Below are positions 7,877 to 16,413 of a DNA stretch of 30,181 nucleotides, piece by piece. A program made the translations under genes and the position numbers. Location: positions 1-30,181 of the IMG/VR virus record IMGVR_UViG_3300022933_000015; one strand, written 5' to 3'. The DNA is from a virus. The notes under the pieces are model-generated. The model searched no databases and was not told the origin of the DNA. It saw only the letters and a program-made list of their open reading frames with translations. Numbering within the stretch: position 1 is the stretch's first letter; every line of letters begins with the position of its first letter.

Positions 7877-8203
7877 TTGAAATCAGATAAACAAATAATC
7901 TCTGACAGACAAAAAAAAACATCAATCAAAGGAACTGTAGGCGAATACGAATCTATTGCTAGACTCACTAAACAAGGATTTTATGTCGCTAAAAGTGTAG
8001 ATCCTGCCTGTCCATTTGACATTGTAATCGTAGATAGAAATGGTAAAATAACATTAATAGACATAAAAACTAATACCTTTAGAAAAAATAAAAAAGGTAA
8101 GAGTCTTAAAGATAAACCTAAAGGCTCATATAAAATTCACAGAAGTCCTACAAAAGAACAAAAAAGGTTAGGCATAAAGTTAATGATGGTAGATTATGAT
8201 TGA
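7877..8203 (+). CDS. PD-(D/E)XK nuclease, Holliday-junction resolvase-like
   Basis: TTG at 7877 is the likely start, just after the previous stop. The 108-residue protein shows the resolvase-type core: KGTVGEYESIARLTKQGF with Glu23/Glu25, FDIVIVD with Asp48, and the IDIKT strand with Asp62-x-Lys64. Arrangement and length match compact archaeal Hjc/Hjr-like and related phage endonucleases that cleave branched DNA or trim DNA during packaging. The gene sits unexpectedly among lysis and virion genes on the late strand. Whether it resolves junctions or is a different PD-(D/E)XK enzyme cannot be told here. Confidence 0.65.
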   Translation: MKSDKQIISDRQKKTSIKGTVGEYESIARLTKQGFYVAKSVDPACPFDIVIVDRNGKITLIDIKTNTFRKNKKGKSLKDKPKGSYKIHRSPTKEQKRLGIKLMMVDYD

Positions 8204-12062: not shown

Positions 12063-12701
12063 TTAATATCCCCAAAATTTCTTAGCATTATTTAAATAAT
12101 CTTCGTTAGCATCATTATTCCAAAACATATGTGTAAAGTCTGGTTGGATATAATCTTTAAGAATATTTGGATCATTACTGATCTTCATTAGGTTCTGTCT
12201 TACTTTAGCTCTTTGTATTATTCTAGGTATTCTTTTCTTAATATTTTCTGGTTTAAGTTCATCACAATTATCTGCATGATAAACTCTAAACTCTTTCTCA
12301 TTGACATAACAAAGATAAACAGGAACTTCAAATACCGACCAATAAAAATCAACTTGTAATAAATTATAAGGTGAAGGCTTATCAGGTAACTTACCAGGAA
12401 ACCAAGACCTAGTACCATCTTTCTTGACCATTCCCCTTCTTGGCATTTTACATTTATCTTCAATGATAACTTTATCACCTTTTAAATCTATGTAACCATG
12501 AACAGGAATATTAATTCCATCAAACCATTTAAAGGCTTCTATCTCTGGCTTACAAGATTCCCAACCTGGTATTGTTTGATGAGCCTTATGACAATTAGCA
12601 ATCATTAAAGGTACTATACTTTTATAATGACTTAACTTTTCTTGGTCATCAGGTGTAAGTGCAACTAGCTTATCTAATTTTTCTTGTACAGAAACAAACA
12701 T
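12063..12701 (-). CDS. PD-(D/E)XK exonuclease, catalytic part (RecB/Cas4-like)
   Basis: The 212-residue protein contains the nuclease core: helix with Glu53 (KPEIEAFKWF), VPVHGYIDLKGDKVIIEDKCK giving Asp72 and Glu81-x-Lys83, and YNLLQVDFYW with the downstream Gln116-x3-Tyr120. This fits the family of phage exonucleases that resect DNA ends for annealing-protein recombination. Such enzymes normally begin with a LSPSQL-type helical segment of about 80 residues, which is missing here. A protein matching that segment is encoded separately at 15454-15705. The start overlaps the repressor stop (TAATG), so this half is co-expressed with the XRE regulator. Confidence 0.7.
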   Translation of the reverse strand: MFVSVQEKLDKLVALTPDDQEKLSHYKSIVPLMIANCHKAHQTIPGWESCKPEIEAFKWFDGINIPVHGYIDLKGDKVIIEDKCKMPRRGMVKKDGTRSWFPGKLPDKPSPYNLLQVDFYWSVFEVPVYLCYVNEKEFRVYHADNCDELKPENIKKRIPRIIQRAKVRQNLMKISNDPNILKDYIQPDFTHMFWNNDANEDYLNNAKKFWGY

Positions 12702-13075
12702 TATTTAGCACCTAATGTTTTTTGATGTTCTTGATAAAATTTATCTCTTTCTTTTTCGTAAGCAATATTAAATTCTTCTGCAACTACATCTAGTTCTTTG
12801 TAGTCATCTAAGAAATAACTCATTGGTTTTTTTAAGAACTTACTTATCTTTACCAAATTAATTAATGGTATTCGGTTCTCACCTTTTTCGTATTTACCTA
12901 TTTGTTGATATGTATTTTTTAGAGCTTTAGCAACTTTAGTTAATGGAACAATAGTTTCCTTACCAGTAAACTCATTAACCTTAGTTCTTCTTGCTTGTCT
13001 TAATTTTTTACCTAAATCAATATAGAATTGATTATCTTCCTCAAAGTTCTTCTTAGCTTTATGTGATAGTTTCAT
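12701..13075 (-). CDS. XRE-family (Cro/CI-like) transcriptional regulator
   Basis: The 124-residue protein has a helix-turn-helix of the lambda-repressor type: DLGKKLRQARR, LTKVAKALKNTYQQIGKYEKGENRIPLINLVKISKFLKKPMSYFLDD at about residues 20-92. A short charged C-terminal helix follows, with no peptidase domain. The ribosome site is AAAGGAAGG. It has its own promoter (13098-13126) with a nearby palindrome, which suggests autoregulation. It is co-transcribed and coupled with the exonuclease catalytic half. It could act as a timing regulator rather than a lysogeny repressor, since no integrase is present. Confidence 0.8.
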   Translation of the reverse strand: MKLSHKAKKNFEEDNQFYIDLGKKLRQARRTKVNEFTGKETIVPLTKVAKALKNTYQQIGKYEKGENRIPLINLVKISKFLKKPMSYFLDDYKELDVVAEEFNIAYEKERDKFYQEHQKTLGAK

Positions 13076-13097
13076 TGTGTTCCTTCCTTTAATTTAG

Positions 13098-13126
13098 AGT
13101 ATAGAATCCCTTAAGTGCTTATGCAA
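13098..13126 (-). promoter_or_regulatory. Promoter of the XRE regulator / exonuclease pair
   Basis: On the minus strand TTGCAT (13121-13126) and TATACT (13098-13103) are separated by exactly 17 bases; the -10 matches the consensus at five of six positions. An imperfect dyad (AAGT-gc-TTAT-gc-AACTT, about 13112-13129) covers the -35 region and is a candidate operator. The start codon lies 22 bases downstream of the -10 box. Confidence 0.5.
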
Positions 13127-13133
13127 CTTTTTA

Positions 13134-13155
13134 TATATACTTAATTAAGTATATA
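13134..13155. promoter_or_regulatory. Perfect 22-bp palindrome upstream of the XRE gene
   Basis: TATATACTTAA (13134-13144) is followed directly by its reverse complement TTAAGTATATA (13145-13155). The palindrome begins 7 bases upstream of the -35 box of the XRE promoter and includes the stop codon of the upstream gene. Size and symmetry fit an operator for a dimeric HTH protein; as RNA it could also form a hairpin between the two genes. Confidence 0.5.
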
Positions 13156-13330
13156 AAAATCTAGCATCTTTGTTCTCTGCTTCAACAATTCTTCGGAATA
13201 ATTGATTGTATTCCTTGAATGCTTTTAGAGTATGTACACATTGCCTTCCCTTATCTTTAGCAGCATAAACTTTTTTATGTGCCTTATCTAGCTTATTGTA
13301 CAATCTAGTATTGCTATTTTTTAAGCTCAT
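13145..13330 (-). CDS. 61-residue basic helical protein
   Basis: The frame is open from 13405, but the ATG at 13330 has GAGGAG (13335-13340) four bases upstream and starts within the last codons of the upstream gene, so I choose it. The product is basic and helical (NTRLYNKLDKAHKKVYAAKDKGRQ, LKAFKEYNQLFRRIVEAENKDARFL). It may bind nucleic acid. No family is recognised. Its stop lies in the 22-bp palindrome. Confidence 0.5.
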   Translation of the reverse strand: MSLKNSNTRLYNKLDKAHKKVYAAKDKGRQCVHTLKAFKEYNQLFRRIVEAENKDARFLYT

Positions 13331-13520
13331 CATTCTCCTCACCAATAATTTTAATATTTGCACTAATAAGTTTGTTATCGGTGATATTTGCTTTTGCAAA
13401 CTCACTAGGCATTTTCTGACTATGTGCTTTTTGTGCAGCTTCTTCTACACTAGCACCATCAAAAATTTCTTCAAAATCTACTGCTAATTCTAAACTTGAT
13501 CTTTTTAAAACTTTAACCAT
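13314..13520 (-). CDS. 68-residue hypothetical protein
   Basis: This small acidic/helical protein (MVKVLKRSSLELAVDFEEIF, GASVEEAAQKAHSQKMPSEF, ending EENDELKK) overlaps the LexA-like gene by eight bases upstream and the next gene by 17 downstream. No motif is recognised. The dense overlaps and lack of alternative coding in the region support it. Confidence 0.5.
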   Translation of the reverse strand: MVKVLKRSSLELAVDFEEIFDGASVEEAAQKAHSQKMPSEFAKANITDNKLISANIKIIGEENDELKK

Positions 13521-13746
13521 TTAAAACTATATTTCTGCTATAACCTGAGTATTCTCTTTTAATTTCGTTCCTCTGTTCTAGCTTTTCAATTAGCGAACTG
13601 ATTGAATTTTTACTTTTGTAACCCATTTCATTAGCCATTTCTAAAAATGTTGGCATATATCCATGTTTTGTACTATAATTTTTAAGATATTGCAATAGTC
13701 TGAGCATTTTAGGAGTCATCGGTCTTTTACCTCTTTTCTTGTTCAT
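13513..13746 (-). CDS. LexA-like winged-helix DNA-binding protein
   Basis: The 77-residue protein is essentially the LexA N-terminal domain alone: MTPKMLRLLQYLKNYSTKHGYMPTFLEMANEMGYKSKNSISSLIEKLEQRNEIKR aligns by eye with the LexA pattern (RLL..I..Y....G..PT..EMA...G.KS...I...I..LE..G.I.R). The autocleavage Ser-Lys domain is absent. AAGGAGG precedes the start. It could compete for host SOS operators or regulate phage promoters. Two HTH genes so close together suggest a small regulatory circuit. Confidence 0.75.
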   Translation of the reverse strand: MNKKRGKRPMTPKMLRLLQYLKNYSTKHGYMPTFLEMANEMGYKSKNSISSLIEKLEQRNEIKREYSGYSRNIVLNG

Positions 13747-14026
13747 TTATTACTAACCTCCTTAATAATTCTGCGTAGCCATTGATGTCATCAAAGCTAT
13801 CTTTTTTATAATTTTCTGATTGCATAACTCTCCAAAGTTTTAAAAAAATCATAAAGATACCAAACAATTTTAAAGGTACTTTGACCTCACAATTATTATA
13901 AACTGATAAATATTTTTCTAAAATTCCTGACATAACATAAGAGGTATGGTCAAACTCTCCATAGTCATCTTGCTTTTGTTTTAATAATCTTTCTATCTCA
14001 CTTATAAACTTTACATTATCTGACAT
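13727..14026 (-). CDS. Nucleotide pyrophosphohydrolase-like protein (DUF6378-type)
   Basis: The 99-residue all-helical protein shows IERLLKQKQDDYGEFDHTSYVM near the start and FLKLWRVMQSENYKKDSFDDINGYAELLRRL near the end. The pattern R/K-x-x-x-YG-[DE]-F ... K-x-x-R ... D-x-x-x-D-[IL]-x-GYA is typical of a MazG-related phage family (I recall DUF6378). Conserved acidic residues could bind magnesium and an NTP. A role in nucleotide pool sanitation is inference. AAAGGAAATT provides the ribosome site. Confidence 0.6.
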   Translation of the reverse strand: MSDNVKFISEIERLLKQKQDDYGEFDHTSYVMSGILEKYLSVYNNCEVKVPLKLFGIFMIFLKLWRVMQSENYKKDSFDDINGYAELLRRLVINEQEKR

Positions 14027-14261
14027 AATTTCCTTTTTCGTCTTTGCAGTAATGAGCCATTACATTTTGATTTTTATATTTAGTTAGCACCCAAACCTCT
14101 CCGTTACCTTCTTTGTAATTTGAGTTCTCAACATACTTGACATTTTTTTCATACATTTCATCACAAGTGATAGGTAATAAAGAATATGCAAAAGGTATCT
14201 TCTCATATTTTAAATTACCATCACCTGTGTATATAACTAAAATTAAAAAAACTACTTTCAA
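14016..14261 (-). CDS. Small exported protein, unknown function
   Basis: The start is TTG immediately after the SSB-like gene stop (TAGTTG), with no strong ribosome site, so coupled reinitiation is likely. A very short hydrophobic N-terminus (MKVVFLILVIY) precedes a polar domain with two cysteines (33 and 72) and a GNGEVWVLTKY strand. It looks like a minimal exported or membrane-anchored protein. No family is recognised. Confidence 0.5.
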   Translation of the reverse strand: MKVVFLILVIYTGDGNLKYEKIPFAYSLLPITCDEMYEKNVKYVENSNYKEGNGEVWVLTKYKNQNVMAHYCKDEKGNYVR

Positions 14262-14627
14262 CTAGAAAGGAATTTCTTTGCTTTGAGGTTTAGCTTGTTT
14301 AGGTCTAGGTTCATTCTTGTAACCAGATAAAATATTACCTGATTCATTAATCCAACCAATTAAACCTTTGTGTCCACCAGCTTCAGAGTAATTCATTTCG
14401 CCAGTAAATTTATCATCACCTTTGAATAGAACTCCTACTTGAGCAAACACTTTAACAAACTTAGTATTACCATCTCTTGATGCACCTTTAACACCAAGTA
14501 TTGTACCCTTGTTGCCATTATCTAAATTTACATTTCCTGAGAAATCAATTTTGATGGCTTTTTCATTGTTGGCATCATAAGGAAATAATACCCAATCCTT
14601 TTGCTTACCACTACCATTGTCTGACAT
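14262..14627 (-). CDS. Putative single-stranded DNA-binding protein
   Basis: The ATG at 14627 is chosen because GGAGG lies five bases upstream on the minus strand; an in-frame ATG at 14639 lacks this. The 121-residue protein is beta-rich (KDWVLFPYDAN, KIDFSGNV, KGTILGVKGASRDGNTKFVKVFAQVGVLF, KGLIGWINE) with a disordered basic linker. It ends in SKEIPF, resembling the acidic-Ile-Pro-Phe tip of SSB proteins. It lies directly downstream of the annealing protein gene, the usual partner. The OB-fold is inferred, not shown. Confidence 0.6.
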   Translation of the reverse strand: MSDNGSGKQKDWVLFPYDANNEKAIKIDFSGNVNLDNGNKGTILGVKGASRDGNTKFVKVFAQVGVLFKGDDKFTGEMNYSEAGGHKGLIGWINESGNILSGYKNEPRPKQAKPQSKEIPF

Positions 14628-15204
14628 TTTGTCCTCCATTTTGTTTTATTGATTGTTGTTGTGATTCAAAGTCTTTTTCTATTGAATCATTTTGTTTCTT
14701 CCAATCGGAATACAAAGCTGTCAACTTGGTTTCTGTTGTTTGCTTTTTAATTGTATCTTTAATTGAAACTTGTTGAGTAGATCCCTTTTGATTGTTTAAG
14801 GCATTTACTAATTCTTCTGCACTAGCATATTCAGTTCCTGATAGACCAAAGGCTGCTAAACATCTTCCTAAAGAACTAGAACTACAGTTCTCCATAGCAC
14901 TTGTTTTATTTATAAAGTTAGCATTTCTATGTTCTTCTGCATGACCAACAGCATAAATAGTATCAGAAATATATAGTTCGGTCTTAACCACAACTCTCTC
15001 ATTATCATGGAATAGTATTTCTTCATTAAATCTAGCTTCAGGGAAATATTGTAAAAGATGTCTATGTCTTTCATTAACAGTTGAATATTTTTTACCTTTA
15101 ATATCAACAGTTGGAATTTTATTAGCACTTGTTAAACATTCCTTTCTTCTTTCTTTAAACCCTCCCTTACTTTTTTCTTCTGTCGTCTGTGGCTTTAGTT
15201 TCAT
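14611..15204 (-). CDS. ssDNA-annealing recombination protein (ERF/Rad52-superfamily-like)
   Basis: The 197-residue protein has the arrangement of phage single-strand annealing proteins: VDIKGKKYSTVNERHRHLLQYFPEARF, VVVKTELYI strand, AVGHAEEHR, and the signature SAMENCSSSSLGRCLAAFGLSGTEYASAEELVNAL at about residues 105-139. That signature corresponds to the usual 'S-x-lEnc-x-(T/S)SA-x-GRaLA-x-hG-x-(G)-(E)-xASA-(D/E)E' segment. A Gln/Lys-rich tail follows. It should anneal complementary strands made by the exonuclease. An AAAGGAAAAA ribosome site precedes the start. The exact subfamily is uncertain. Confidence 0.7.
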   Translation of the reverse strand: MKLKPQTTEEKSKGGFKERRKECLTSANKIPTVDIKGKKYSTVNERHRHLLQYFPEARFNEEILFHDNERVVVKTELYISDTIYAVGHAEEHRNANFINKTSAMENCSSSSLGRCLAAFGLSGTEYASAEELVNALNNQKGSTQQVSIKDTIKKQTTETKLTALYSDWKKQNDSIEKDFESQQQSIKQNGGQNVRQW

Positions 15205-15454
15205 TTTTTCCTTTCATTTGTATCTTTTGGTTTTCTTTAATTTGGTCAACATCTTTCTGTGCTTTAGCTTCTAAATAGCTTTTATTCTTAGCAACCATTT
15301 GATCTTTAAGTTCAAGTAAATCTAATTTCTTTTTTAGTTCTGATATTTCGTTATCCCTTAAATGTAATTGCTCAATATGTTTCTTTTCATTTTGTTCATA
15401 AGCTCTAATTTTACTTTGCATCTTTGCAAGTTCCATCATTACCTGGTCTGTCAT
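15167..15454 (-). CDS. 95-residue coiled-coil protein
   Basis: Nearly the whole protein is charged heptad helix (MMELAKMQSKIRAYEQNEKKHIEQLHLRDNEISELKKKLDLLELKDQ), ending in a very Lys-rich tail. The start overlaps the stop of the exonuclease N-half gene (TAATG), and its end overlaps the annealing protein gene by 38 bases. It may bridge components of the recombination set. No family is recognised. Confidence 0.55.
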   Translation of the reverse strand: MTDQVMMELAKMQSKIRAYEQNEKKHIEQLHLRDNEISELKKKLDLLELKDQMVAKNKSYLEAKAQKDVDQIKENQKIQMKGKNETKATDDRRKK

Positions 15455-15705
15455 TATTTTTTCCCTTTCATTACTTCTTCAAATGTTAATTTATGAACAA
15501 TCAAATCTTGAACTGCCTGACCTACTATAGCTCCTATGTCCATGTTAAGATTTCCTAACAAATCTTTTCTTTCTTTAGCAGTTAAAATTACATAATCATT
15601 AAACCATATATCTAAACTTTTATTTAATTGACTTGGACTTAGATGATCTGCTGTAAATGTTCCGCCTTCTTCTTTTCTTGTCCACTCTTTCCCAATTGTT
15701 TTCAT
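15454..15705 (-). CDS. Apparent N-terminal segment of a RecB/Cas4-like exonuclease, as a separate gene
   Basis: The 83-residue protein reads WTRKEEGGTF, DHLSPSQLNKSLDIWFNDYVILTAKERKDL, NLNMDIGAIVGQAVQDLIV, LTFEEVMKGKK. This matches the entry segment of phage PD-(D/E)XK exonucleases: a LS-P/x-S-x-L-N helix, an aromatic helix with W and Y, and an h-x-x-G-x-x-V/F-(G/E)-x-A helix. It stops with no catalytic residues. The catalytic remainder is found at 12063-12701, 2.75 kb downstream in the same arm. AAGGAATAT is its ribosome site. It could also be a relic. Confidence 0.55.
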   Translation of the reverse strand: MKTIGKEWTRKEEGGTFTADHLSPSQLNKSLDIWFNDYVILTAKERKDLLGNLNMDIGAIVGQAVQDLIVHKLTFEEVMKGKK

Positions 15706-15759
15706 ATATTCCTTTTAGTTAATGGAACAAAAATAGTCAATAAATTATACAAATTATAT

Positions 15760-16413
15760 TCAATTTGAGAGTTCATTATCAAATATTATTGTAGCATTAA
15801 AACTAAATGAGATTCTTTCTTTATCTTCATCATCTGTATTATAGGGATAAACAACATGAGATAGTGAGTTTGGGAACAATATCCAATCCCTAACCTCTGG
15901 CATAACTCTATAAGAATTATTATTAAACATATTTTCTGATCCTTCTATAAATTCAACCTGACCTGAAAAATCGTTATGTTCTTTTGCGTTAGTTGTTGAA
16001 ATCATTTTAGGTATTTGTAAATAACCAACGCAGCTTAAATGATAATTACCATGAACATATTCAGTATGGGTATGGCAAGGGTTATAATCTCCAGGTTTTG
16101 ATATTACATACCAAGCAGAATTAATTAGAATAGATTTAATCTTATGTTCTATGTGATTTTTAACATAAGTATTAATAATAGGATCAAAAAACTTTTGTTT
16201 CCATTTAAGCATAATTTCTGGTGAAATTAGATACTCTGAATCTACATGACCGACTAACTTTTTAGACCAATCATGGTTCTTTTGTTTTTCTTTATCTTCT
16301 CTTATTTCTTTTAAATCATTACTAAAATCTTTTATAAGTTCTAATGGCATAACTGCTTTAGCAACTGTTGAGCCAAAAGGTTTAAATAATTTAAAATTTA
16401 TCTTGTCCGACAT
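15760..16413 (-). CDS. Putative 2OG-Fe(II) oxygenase
   Basis: The 217-residue protein has the double-stranded beta-helix pattern of the phage 2OG-Fe(II) oxygenase family: GDYNPCHTHTEYVHG (metal ligands His114 and His116), later DWILFPNSLSHVVYPYN with His186, and DKERISFSFNATI with Arg200 as likely 2-oxoglutarate contact. The substrate is unknown; related phage enzymes are often suspected of hydroxylating proteins or nucleotides. GGAGGAAG precedes the ATG. It overlaps the upstream nuclease-like gene by 23 bases. Confidence 0.7.
   Translation of the reverse strand: MSDKINFKLFKPFGSTVAKAVMPLELIKDFSNDLKEIREDKEKQKNHDWSKKLVGHVDSEYLISPEIMLKWKQKFFDPIINTYVKNHIEHKIKSILINSAWYVISKPGDYNPCHTHTEYVHGNYHLSCVGYLQIPKMISTTNAKEHNDFSGQVEFIEGSENMFNNNSYRVMPEVRDWILFPNSLSHVVYPYNTDDEDKERISFSFNATIIFDNELSN

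Follow-up and report, generated by a model that had tools for sequence, protein, structure and literature searches.

Halves of one phage recombination exonuclease, probably encoded by two distant genes in ocean viruses related to SAR11 phages

The locus and its distribution

The window analyzed here, a stretch of 30,181 nucleotides from the IMG/VR virus record IMGVR_UViG_3300022933_000015, carries on its minus strand two ORFs encoding proteins of 83 and 212 aa (hereafter N and C; Table 1), separated by 2,752 bp and nine small genes. Both ORFs were found where an earlier note on this DNA had placed them, and the many genes that it saw in the interval, given there as seven or more, are corrected here to nine. 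The LSPSQLN and GxxVGQxxQ segments that it described could be located in the 83-aa protein, as could D72, E81-x-K83 and Q116-x3-Y120 in the 212-aa protein, where they are kept across relatives.

Table 1. Coordinates of the two halves, of the genes and elements between them, and of the motifs in C
Feature	Position	Strand	Remarks
N half	15454..15705	-	83 aa; corresponds to the opening helical segment of the exonuclease
95-aa protein, probably coiled-coil	15167..15454	-	start codon overlaps N stop codon
Putative recombination partner (phrog_11717, function unknown)	14611..15204	-	homologue of HTVC028P gp09
125-aa protein	14262..14639	-	at the position of the C72C1 SSB gene; no family match
81-aa protein	14016..14261	-	between the halves, variable
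DUF6378 protein	13727..14026	-	homologue of HTVC028P gp12
LexA-type helix-turn-helix protein	13513..13746	-	PF01726, E 1.1e-8
68-aa protein	13314..13520	-	between the halves
Small gene upstream of XRE	13145..13330	-	ORF may begin as far up as 13405
22-bp perfect palindrome TATATACTTAATTAAGTATATA	13134..13155		possible operator
Promoter-like pair	13098..13127	-	GTTGCAT (13121-13127), 17, TATACT (13098-13103); upstream of XRE-C
XRE-family regulator	12701..13075	-	PF01381, E 2.8e-7; stop codon overlaps C start
C half	12063..12701	-	212 aa; predicted catalytic part and conserved C-terminal tail
D72 of C	12486-12488	-	predicted catalytic Asp
E81 of C	12459-12461	-	Glu of E-x-K
K83 of C	12453-12455	-	Lys of E-x-K
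Q116-x3-Y120 of C	12342-12356	-	QhxxY motif

The suggestion that each half has its own start and ribosome site applies to N, for which aaaaggaatatATG is recognizable, but in most relatives, as in the window, the stop codon of XRE overlaps the start codon of C (TAATG), which makes it probable that C is translated by coupling to XRE. A separate repressor-linked promoter for C had also been proposed, and the promoter-like pair upstream of XRE-C does keep its position in most relatives, but a generic promoter scan gave no excess over shuffles. The palindrome is present in a form with 11-bp arms in most relatives examined, while the longest arm in 300 shuffles was 9. At the other end of the interval, the 95-aa gene directly follows N in 124 of the 142 split loci with both ORFs complete, and was undetected in the remaining 18. 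For the putative recombination partner, no link to Erf or Sak was obtained, and its annealing role stays putative.

The same arrangement, with N followed by C on one strand at a distance of 2.5-3.6 kb, is seen at 164 loci in IMG/VR and in a cultured phage, the isolate HTVC106P (where gp12 is N and gp22 is C), and an assembly error could therefore be ruled out as the cause of the split. The split is shared by a large group of marine viruses that are relatives of the phages infecting SAR11 bacteria. N accompanies C wherever the flank is long enough, with the sole exception of contig L076, the only one with enough flank to lack N, which was dropped as a plain exception because it bears a complete type-C exonuclease.

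Relation to single-chain exonucleases

When profiles were aligned to each other with hhalign, N matched residues 5-67 of the fused relatives (Prob 98.1, E 1.4e-13, 63 columns) and C matched residues 77-268 (Prob 99.9, E 3.4e-36), the two covering successive, non-overlapping parts of a RecB/Cas4/RecE-type PD-(D/E)XK exonuclease of ~270 aa. In each split record searched, a full-length family profile matched exactly twice, once to each half (N always at 2e-7 or better), and it matched once in the fused phage C72C1; N also matches every complete type-A fused protein. Judged from these alignments, N and C are homologous to one fused enzyme, far beyond chance. Fused types A, B and C all encode one continuous chain, the fused single-chain relatives adjoin recombination genes, and the split clade is monophyletic.

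The earlier note had considered that the 83-aa protein could belong to a different family, or that a complete exonuclease could lie elsewhere. The protein aligns to no other family, and in the split records searched the family profile detected no complete second exonuclease. The PF12705 and YqaJ models likewise revealed none, but they also missed the C72C1 enzyme, which makes the Pfam negative weak and the family profile the sensitive test. Searches of the halves against Pfam and PHROGs gave no match or only sub-threshold ones (none for the 83-aa protein), and sequence searches of the PDB returned nothing meaningful. Eight of 28 fused relatives reach PF12705 (best E 1.2e-4), and fused relatives reach phrog_1706 at 5.8e-8. 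An alignment that included the most distant relatives proved too divergent to be used for scanning the collection.

Active-site motifs, predicted fold and selection

In alignments with fused relatives, D72, E81 and K83 of C are invariant, and so are the Q and Y of its QhxxY motif, which reads Q116-V-D-F-Y120 (the QhxxY, D and E-x-K motifs are defined in PMC6237815). N retains most of the residues that do not vary among the fused relatives, and it preserves their S-P-S-Q, Arg and helix motifs; in 22 split representatives, H21, S23-P24-S25-Q26, W34, Y38, R46 and the motif-Ia helix G58..Q66 are conserved. It had been stated that N stops before any catalytic residue, and the carboxylates and the Lys are indeed all in C, but the motif-Ia helix (RecB-type His motif) is in N. 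The His itself is not present, as Gly62 occupies its position and Gly is found there in 22/22 split representatives. This His is invariant in fused type A, but the position is Gly or Asn in the fused HTVC028P, 034P, 010P and 100P, and the His is also missing from most fused type B and C relatives.

The AlphaFold2 model of C (pLDDT 83) has Cas4 (4ic1) as its best PDB match, and the model of a fused relative (pLDDT 91) best matches RecB-family nucleases; the first-ranked structures for the two models are Cas4, RecB-family and RecE, at modest TM-scores (0.29-0.55), and N and C together are predicted to have the PD-(D/E)XK fold. In the fused-relative model, the motif-Ia helix belongs to the part that corresponds to N and the Asp/Glu/Lys site to that of C, and the break point falls in the loop 75-81 between helices, in agreement with the linker suggested in the past. 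The catalytic core is also predicted for C alone. The C-terminal tail of C is less confident in this model without N than in the fused model, an indirect sign that the chains assemble, although the two models differ in sequences and alignments. C shows no replacement for the missing opening segment, and N shows no added domain.

The dN/dS ratios of N (0.205) and C (0.181) indicate that both halves are under purifying selection. In spite of the distance between the two genes, the N-C partial distance correlation (0.65-0.76) is the highest of all gene pairs in the block, the two halves of C itself correlating at 0.75; because these distances come from one clade and are not independent, the co-variation is indirect evidence.

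Interpretation and comparison with known systems

It is very probable, in our opinion, that N and C derive, each as one half, from a single ancestral phage recombination exonuclease of the RecB/Cas4/RecE-type PD-(D/E)XK kind, whose gene was broken once, with C moved and the chains assembling. That one RecB/Cas4-like phage exonuclease extends across two distant genes had been the main proposal of the earlier note, and is supported by profile-profile alignment, fused relatives, the fused-relative model, synteny and co-variation. The ancestral gene would have broken where a loop links two nuclease-domain helices; the N piece would have stayed at the original place beside the putative recombination partner, and the catalytic piece would have relocated to a site ~2.7 kb downstream, where it follows an XRE regulator that has a promoter-like sequence of its own. 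The gene order of HTVC028P is as in the split viruses, but its fused nuclease sits at the N position, adjoining gp09 (the homologue of the putative partner), which suggests that the C half is probably the piece that moved. Two chains most likely make up the working enzyme. They would fold together into one nuclease in which the metal-binding active site is contributed by C and the helical opening segment, with the S-x-S and Arg motifs and the motif-Ia helix, by N; this nuclease would trim DNA ends for the phage recombination pathway. It is possible that this assembly is controllable through the two transcription units. An obligate two-chain exonuclease gated by separate expression, in which resection starts only when both units are active, appears rather doubtful to us; in such a scheme, C would be translationally coupled to XRE, with its own conserved promoter and palindrome.

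Alternatively, N might lie outside the active enzyme and be kept as a separate regulator of C, either an inhibitor or an adaptor to the partner, bound at the old intramolecular surface. Its place in the operon of the partner gene, apart from C, would agree with such a role, and contact, not catalysis, would suffice for co-variation; we nonetheless find this unlikely, as the S-P-S-Q, Arg and helix motifs of the single-chain enzyme persist in N, which has no added domain, and C has nothing that replaces the lost segment. It is quite unlikely that C has come to work alone as a nuclease and that N is a relic being lost, as the earlier note had also contemplated: C does hold all the acidic and lysine active-site residues, its predicted core survives without N, and N has lost the motif-Ia His, but a dN/dS of about 0.2 and the preservation of N disfavor decay, given that most residues invariant in fused relatives are retained, that N co-varies with C, and that it is present wherever C is and the flank suffices, L076 with its whole exonuclease excepted.

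That the halves are rejoined during infection into one normal chain, by RNA or protein splicing or by DNA excision, is hardly credible. N and C are in N-to-C order on the same strand, and the two copies of a perfect 17-bp direct repeat (12935-12951, 15714-15730) enclose much of the interval. This repeat is present only in the window and the near-identical contig L002, however, and excision across it would not give an in-frame fusion of the halves; as it is not conserved, we discarded it as a site of excision. Furthermore, neither an intron nor any other Rfam family is present in the window, intein parts would not fit into proteins this short, and conserved genes fill the interval. Equally little credit is due to the idea that the 83-aa protein resembles exonuclease N-termini by chance or only through a shared short motif. 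Pairwise identity to the fused relatives is only ~35%, and neither Pfam nor PHROGs matches the protein, but this explanation is already refuted by the E value of 1.4e-13 over 63 columns and by the matches to N in all split records and all complete type-A fused proteins.

These viruses provide a natural, lineage-wide case of a nuclease domain that came apart within the fold itself, where the helical opening segment meets the catalytic core, and that has nevertheless been maintained; two transcription units most likely supply it as two chains. A likely function can be assigned to two "hypothetical" families in HTVC106P and many marine relatives, and, as fused and split homologues both exist, it can be tested directly whether an enzyme gains a control point by being split.

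Among the closest known counterparts are gp12 and gp22 of HTVC106P, the same halves in the same arrangement, which differ from those of the window in sequence alone (66% and 71% identity) and are annotated as "hypothetical protein". The "putative nuclease" of C72C1, HTVC028P, HTVC034P, HTVC010P and HTVC100P is homologous over the full N plus C and adjoins or is near a recombination gene, but it is one ORF of 270-360 aa, with no separate catalytic gene behind a regulator, and the type A enzyme of C72C1 keeps the motif-Ia His. The nuclease domains of RecB/AddA/AdnA, Cas4 and RecE (PDB 9np6, 4ic1, 3h4r), which are the best structural matches of the fused relative, share the D, E-x-K and QhxxY motifs with the window enzyme, but their matched region is one continuous chain, identity is low (12-17%), and the motif-Ia His is absent in the window. 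Phage genes in pieces are already known, namely nrdA of Aeh1, gene 43 of phage 25 and the T4 topoisomerase; the pieces of nrdA and gene 43 were shown to work together, and nrdA and the topoisomerase gene were split by insertion of a homing endonuclease (PMC2988022). The present case appears to be undescribed, as our literature searches did not find a split of this exonuclease. Pfam and PHROGs recognized no homing gene in the interval, although several of its nine genes match no family. As in those examples, one phage enzyme is encoded here by two coding regions; unlike nrdA and the topoisomerase, its halves are separated by nine small genes, and C is placed behind a regulator.

Two genes matching a single exonuclease

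Searched on their own against Pfam and PHROGs, neither the 83-aa protein (N), the opening segment of the exonuclease, nor the 212-aa protein (C), its catalytic part, reached any family. Using tblastn against annotated phages, we found relatives of C in 22 records, and in C72C1 the match to C adjoins the match to N. A single ORF of 270-360 aa, in fact, covers both in phages C72C1, HTVC034P, HTVC028P, HTVC010P and HTVC100P; it is annotated as 'putative nuclease' or hypothetical, and adjoins or sits near a Sak-like, Erf-like or uncharacterised (phrog_11717) gene. N matched all 73 complete IMG/VR proteins of fused type A, one of three single-chain types, over roughly residues 8-67, and C matched them over roughly residues 82-267; profile-profile comparison aligned N to fused residues 5-67 (Prob 98.1, E 1.4e-13) and C to residues 77-268 (Prob 99.9, E 3.4e-36). 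The fused-family profile found exactly two sites, one per half, in the window (a 30,181-bp virus record), in its relative Pelagibacter phage HTVC106P, and in 13 other split records, and a single site in C72C1. Judged from these sequence matches, N and C are parts of one enzyme.

Both halves belong to a compact minus-strand block that runs from a 2OG-Fe(II) oxygenase gene through C, and are spaced by 2,752 bp and nine intervening genes. The oxygenase gene lies immediately upstream of N in most relatives. A small PDDEXK_5-like protein, short of the family cut-off, is separate from the split exonuclease.

Features of the window, with the minus-strand block in the order of its genes
Feature	Position	Strand	Remarks
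2OG-Fe(II) oxygenase	15760-16413	-	PF13759, E 1.1e-15
N	15454-15705	-	83 aa
Probable coiled-coil protein	next after N	-	95 aa
Putative recombination partner	14611-15204	-	phrog_11717
125-aa protein, then 81-aa protein	after putative partner	-	
DUF6378 protein, then LexA-type HTH protein, then two small genes	between 81-aa gene and XRE	-	
XRE regulator	12701-13075	-	
C	12063-12701	-	212 aa
PDDEXK_5-like small protein	7877-8203	+	E 3.7e-4
17-bp direct repeat, first copy	12935-12951		inside XRE gene
17-bp direct repeat, second copy	15714-15730		just upstream of N

Origin and spread of the split

When the fused protein was compared with PDB folds, its top matches were Cas4, AdnA, RecB, RecE and AddA. 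Because these alignments span 190-300 columns within one chain, a single chain is the likely ancestral state. In HTVC028P the fused nuclease is followed by a small gene and by homologues of the putative partner (E 1.4e-20), the DUF6378 protein (6.7e-5) and XRE (1.9e-5), with no C half following the last. This gene order is likely the arrangement that preceded the split, and N would therefore have stayed in place and the catalytic part relocated behind XRE.

In the isolate HTVC106P, N is gp12 and C is gp22, each annotated 'hypothetical protein'. Both halves occur in 164 IMG/VR loci, a count that includes some contigs more than once and corresponds to 100 distinct N+C sequences, with identical order and strand throughout and a gap of 2546-3637 bp (median 2729). 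Gene order is uniform among the 142 loci where both ORFs are complete, except that no coiled-coil gene was detected in 18 of them, and no contig with sufficient flank carried N without C. The split sequences group in our tree as a single clade (support 0.889), alongside fused types A (0.995) and B (0.999). The split is genuine and has become fixed.

Only two contigs with apparently long enough flank, L019 and L076, carry C without N. L019 starts within the coiled-coil gene. L076 lacks N at its usual place and has a complete 310-aa exonuclease on the opposite strand, 71% identical to that of HTVC100P; L076:48-5433 consists of this HTVC100P-like exonuclease and its upstream genes joined to an HTVC106P-like block with C, the junction lying near a PAPS-reductase-like gene common to both phage groups. 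This contig is either a natural recombinant or a chimeric assembly; in the former case, N would have disappeared where a complete exonuclease came in, as a role of N in the exonuclease would predict.

Several other features of these loci are worth recording. A PAPS-reductase-like protein (272-279 aa) is optional cargo next to the N half, after the coiled-coil gene in L019, L053, L078, L086 and L106, as is a 151-aa protein resembling DNA adenine methyltransferase between N and the coiled-coil gene in L075 and L121. The 17-bp repeat, perfect and direct, is confined to the window and the near-identical contig L002. Both halves also occur on L222 (JAQBUY010000090.1), a fragment from this phage group that is recorded as part of a bacterial MAG, probably through binning of phage DNA with that of a bacterium.

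Co-variation and predicted structure

Median pairwise dN/dS was 0.205 for N and 0.181 for C, which indicates that both halves are in use. Amino-acid distances for the block genes were compared by partial correlation, with the other genes held constant. The N-C value was 0.65 over 60 loci and 0.76 over the 32 loci in which the 2OG gene could be included (permutation p about 0.001), ranking top among all gene pairs in 200/200 and 198/200 subsamples, respectively; values were about zero for N versus the putative partner gene and for C versus XRE, its immediate neighbour. Since C, when divided in two, gave 0.75 between its own halves, N and C behave much like parts of one protein, with N tracking columns 1-50 (0.71) and the tail, columns 175-214 (0.64), of the C alignment most. 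The evidence that N and C change together is strong but indirect, within-clade distances not being independent and recombination being a possible contributor.

In an AlphaFold2 model of L200, a fused relative (pLDDT 91, pTM 0.86), the part aligned with N comprises helices 11-14, 18-27, 30-34 and 40-58, the last being the motif-Ia helix, together with a portion of helix 62-74. The part aligned with C starts in loop 75-81; it contains a long helix (82-107), the entire beta sheet and residues D132, E141-x-K143 and Q176-x3-Y180. These boundaries place the break within the nuclease domain, in a loop. Modelled alone, the window's C scores pLDDT 83, with most of its last 25 residues below 50, and in the fused model the region matching this tail reaches about 80-90; that N holds the tail in place is only suggested by this comparison, whose models differ in sequence and alignment. 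Among the RecB-type nuclease motifs described previously (PMC6237815), QhxxY is present as defined there; the His of motif Ia never varies in fused type A and is replaced by Gly in split N. The fused proteins of HTVC028P, 034P, 010P and 100P also have Gly or Asn at this position, so loss of the His is independent of the split.

Expression, proposed function and known split genes

The N gene is preceded by a ribosome site, and a block upstream of the gene is conserved. In the window and most relatives, C starts within the XRE stop codon (TAATG), so that its translation is probably coupled to that of XRE. The position of GTTGCAT-17-TATACT, upstream of the XRE gene, is conserved in most relatives, as is the preceding palindrome, TATATACTTAATTAAGTATATA, with an arm of 11 (longest in 300 shuffles, 9). 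Because a general promoter scan found no excess over shuffles, it is conservation that argues for this promoter-like pair. XRE may repress XRE-C.

The best reading is that N and C would associate into one RecB/Cas4-like exonuclease, which would prepare DNA ends for phage recombination. In exonucleases of this family, an N-terminal S-x-S and Arg region helps bind the DNA end, and such binding may be the role of N. The phrog_11717 protein, conserved and a constant neighbour of the exonuclease or of its N half, had no Erf or Sak match and no detectable tie to known annealing proteins; it is a candidate new recombination partner.

No prior description of this split was found in the literature searched, which included few subscription journals, and the one paper in it that names HTVC106P does not mention an exonuclease. 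What appears new is a recombination exonuclease whose nuclease domain is itself interrupted and whose catalytic half belongs to a transcription unit linked to a regulator, and the fixation of this split throughout a widespread marine lineage. Split phage genes with cooperating products include nrdA of Aeh1 and gene 43 of phage 25, and the products of the split T4 topoisomerase probably cooperate as well (PMC2988022).
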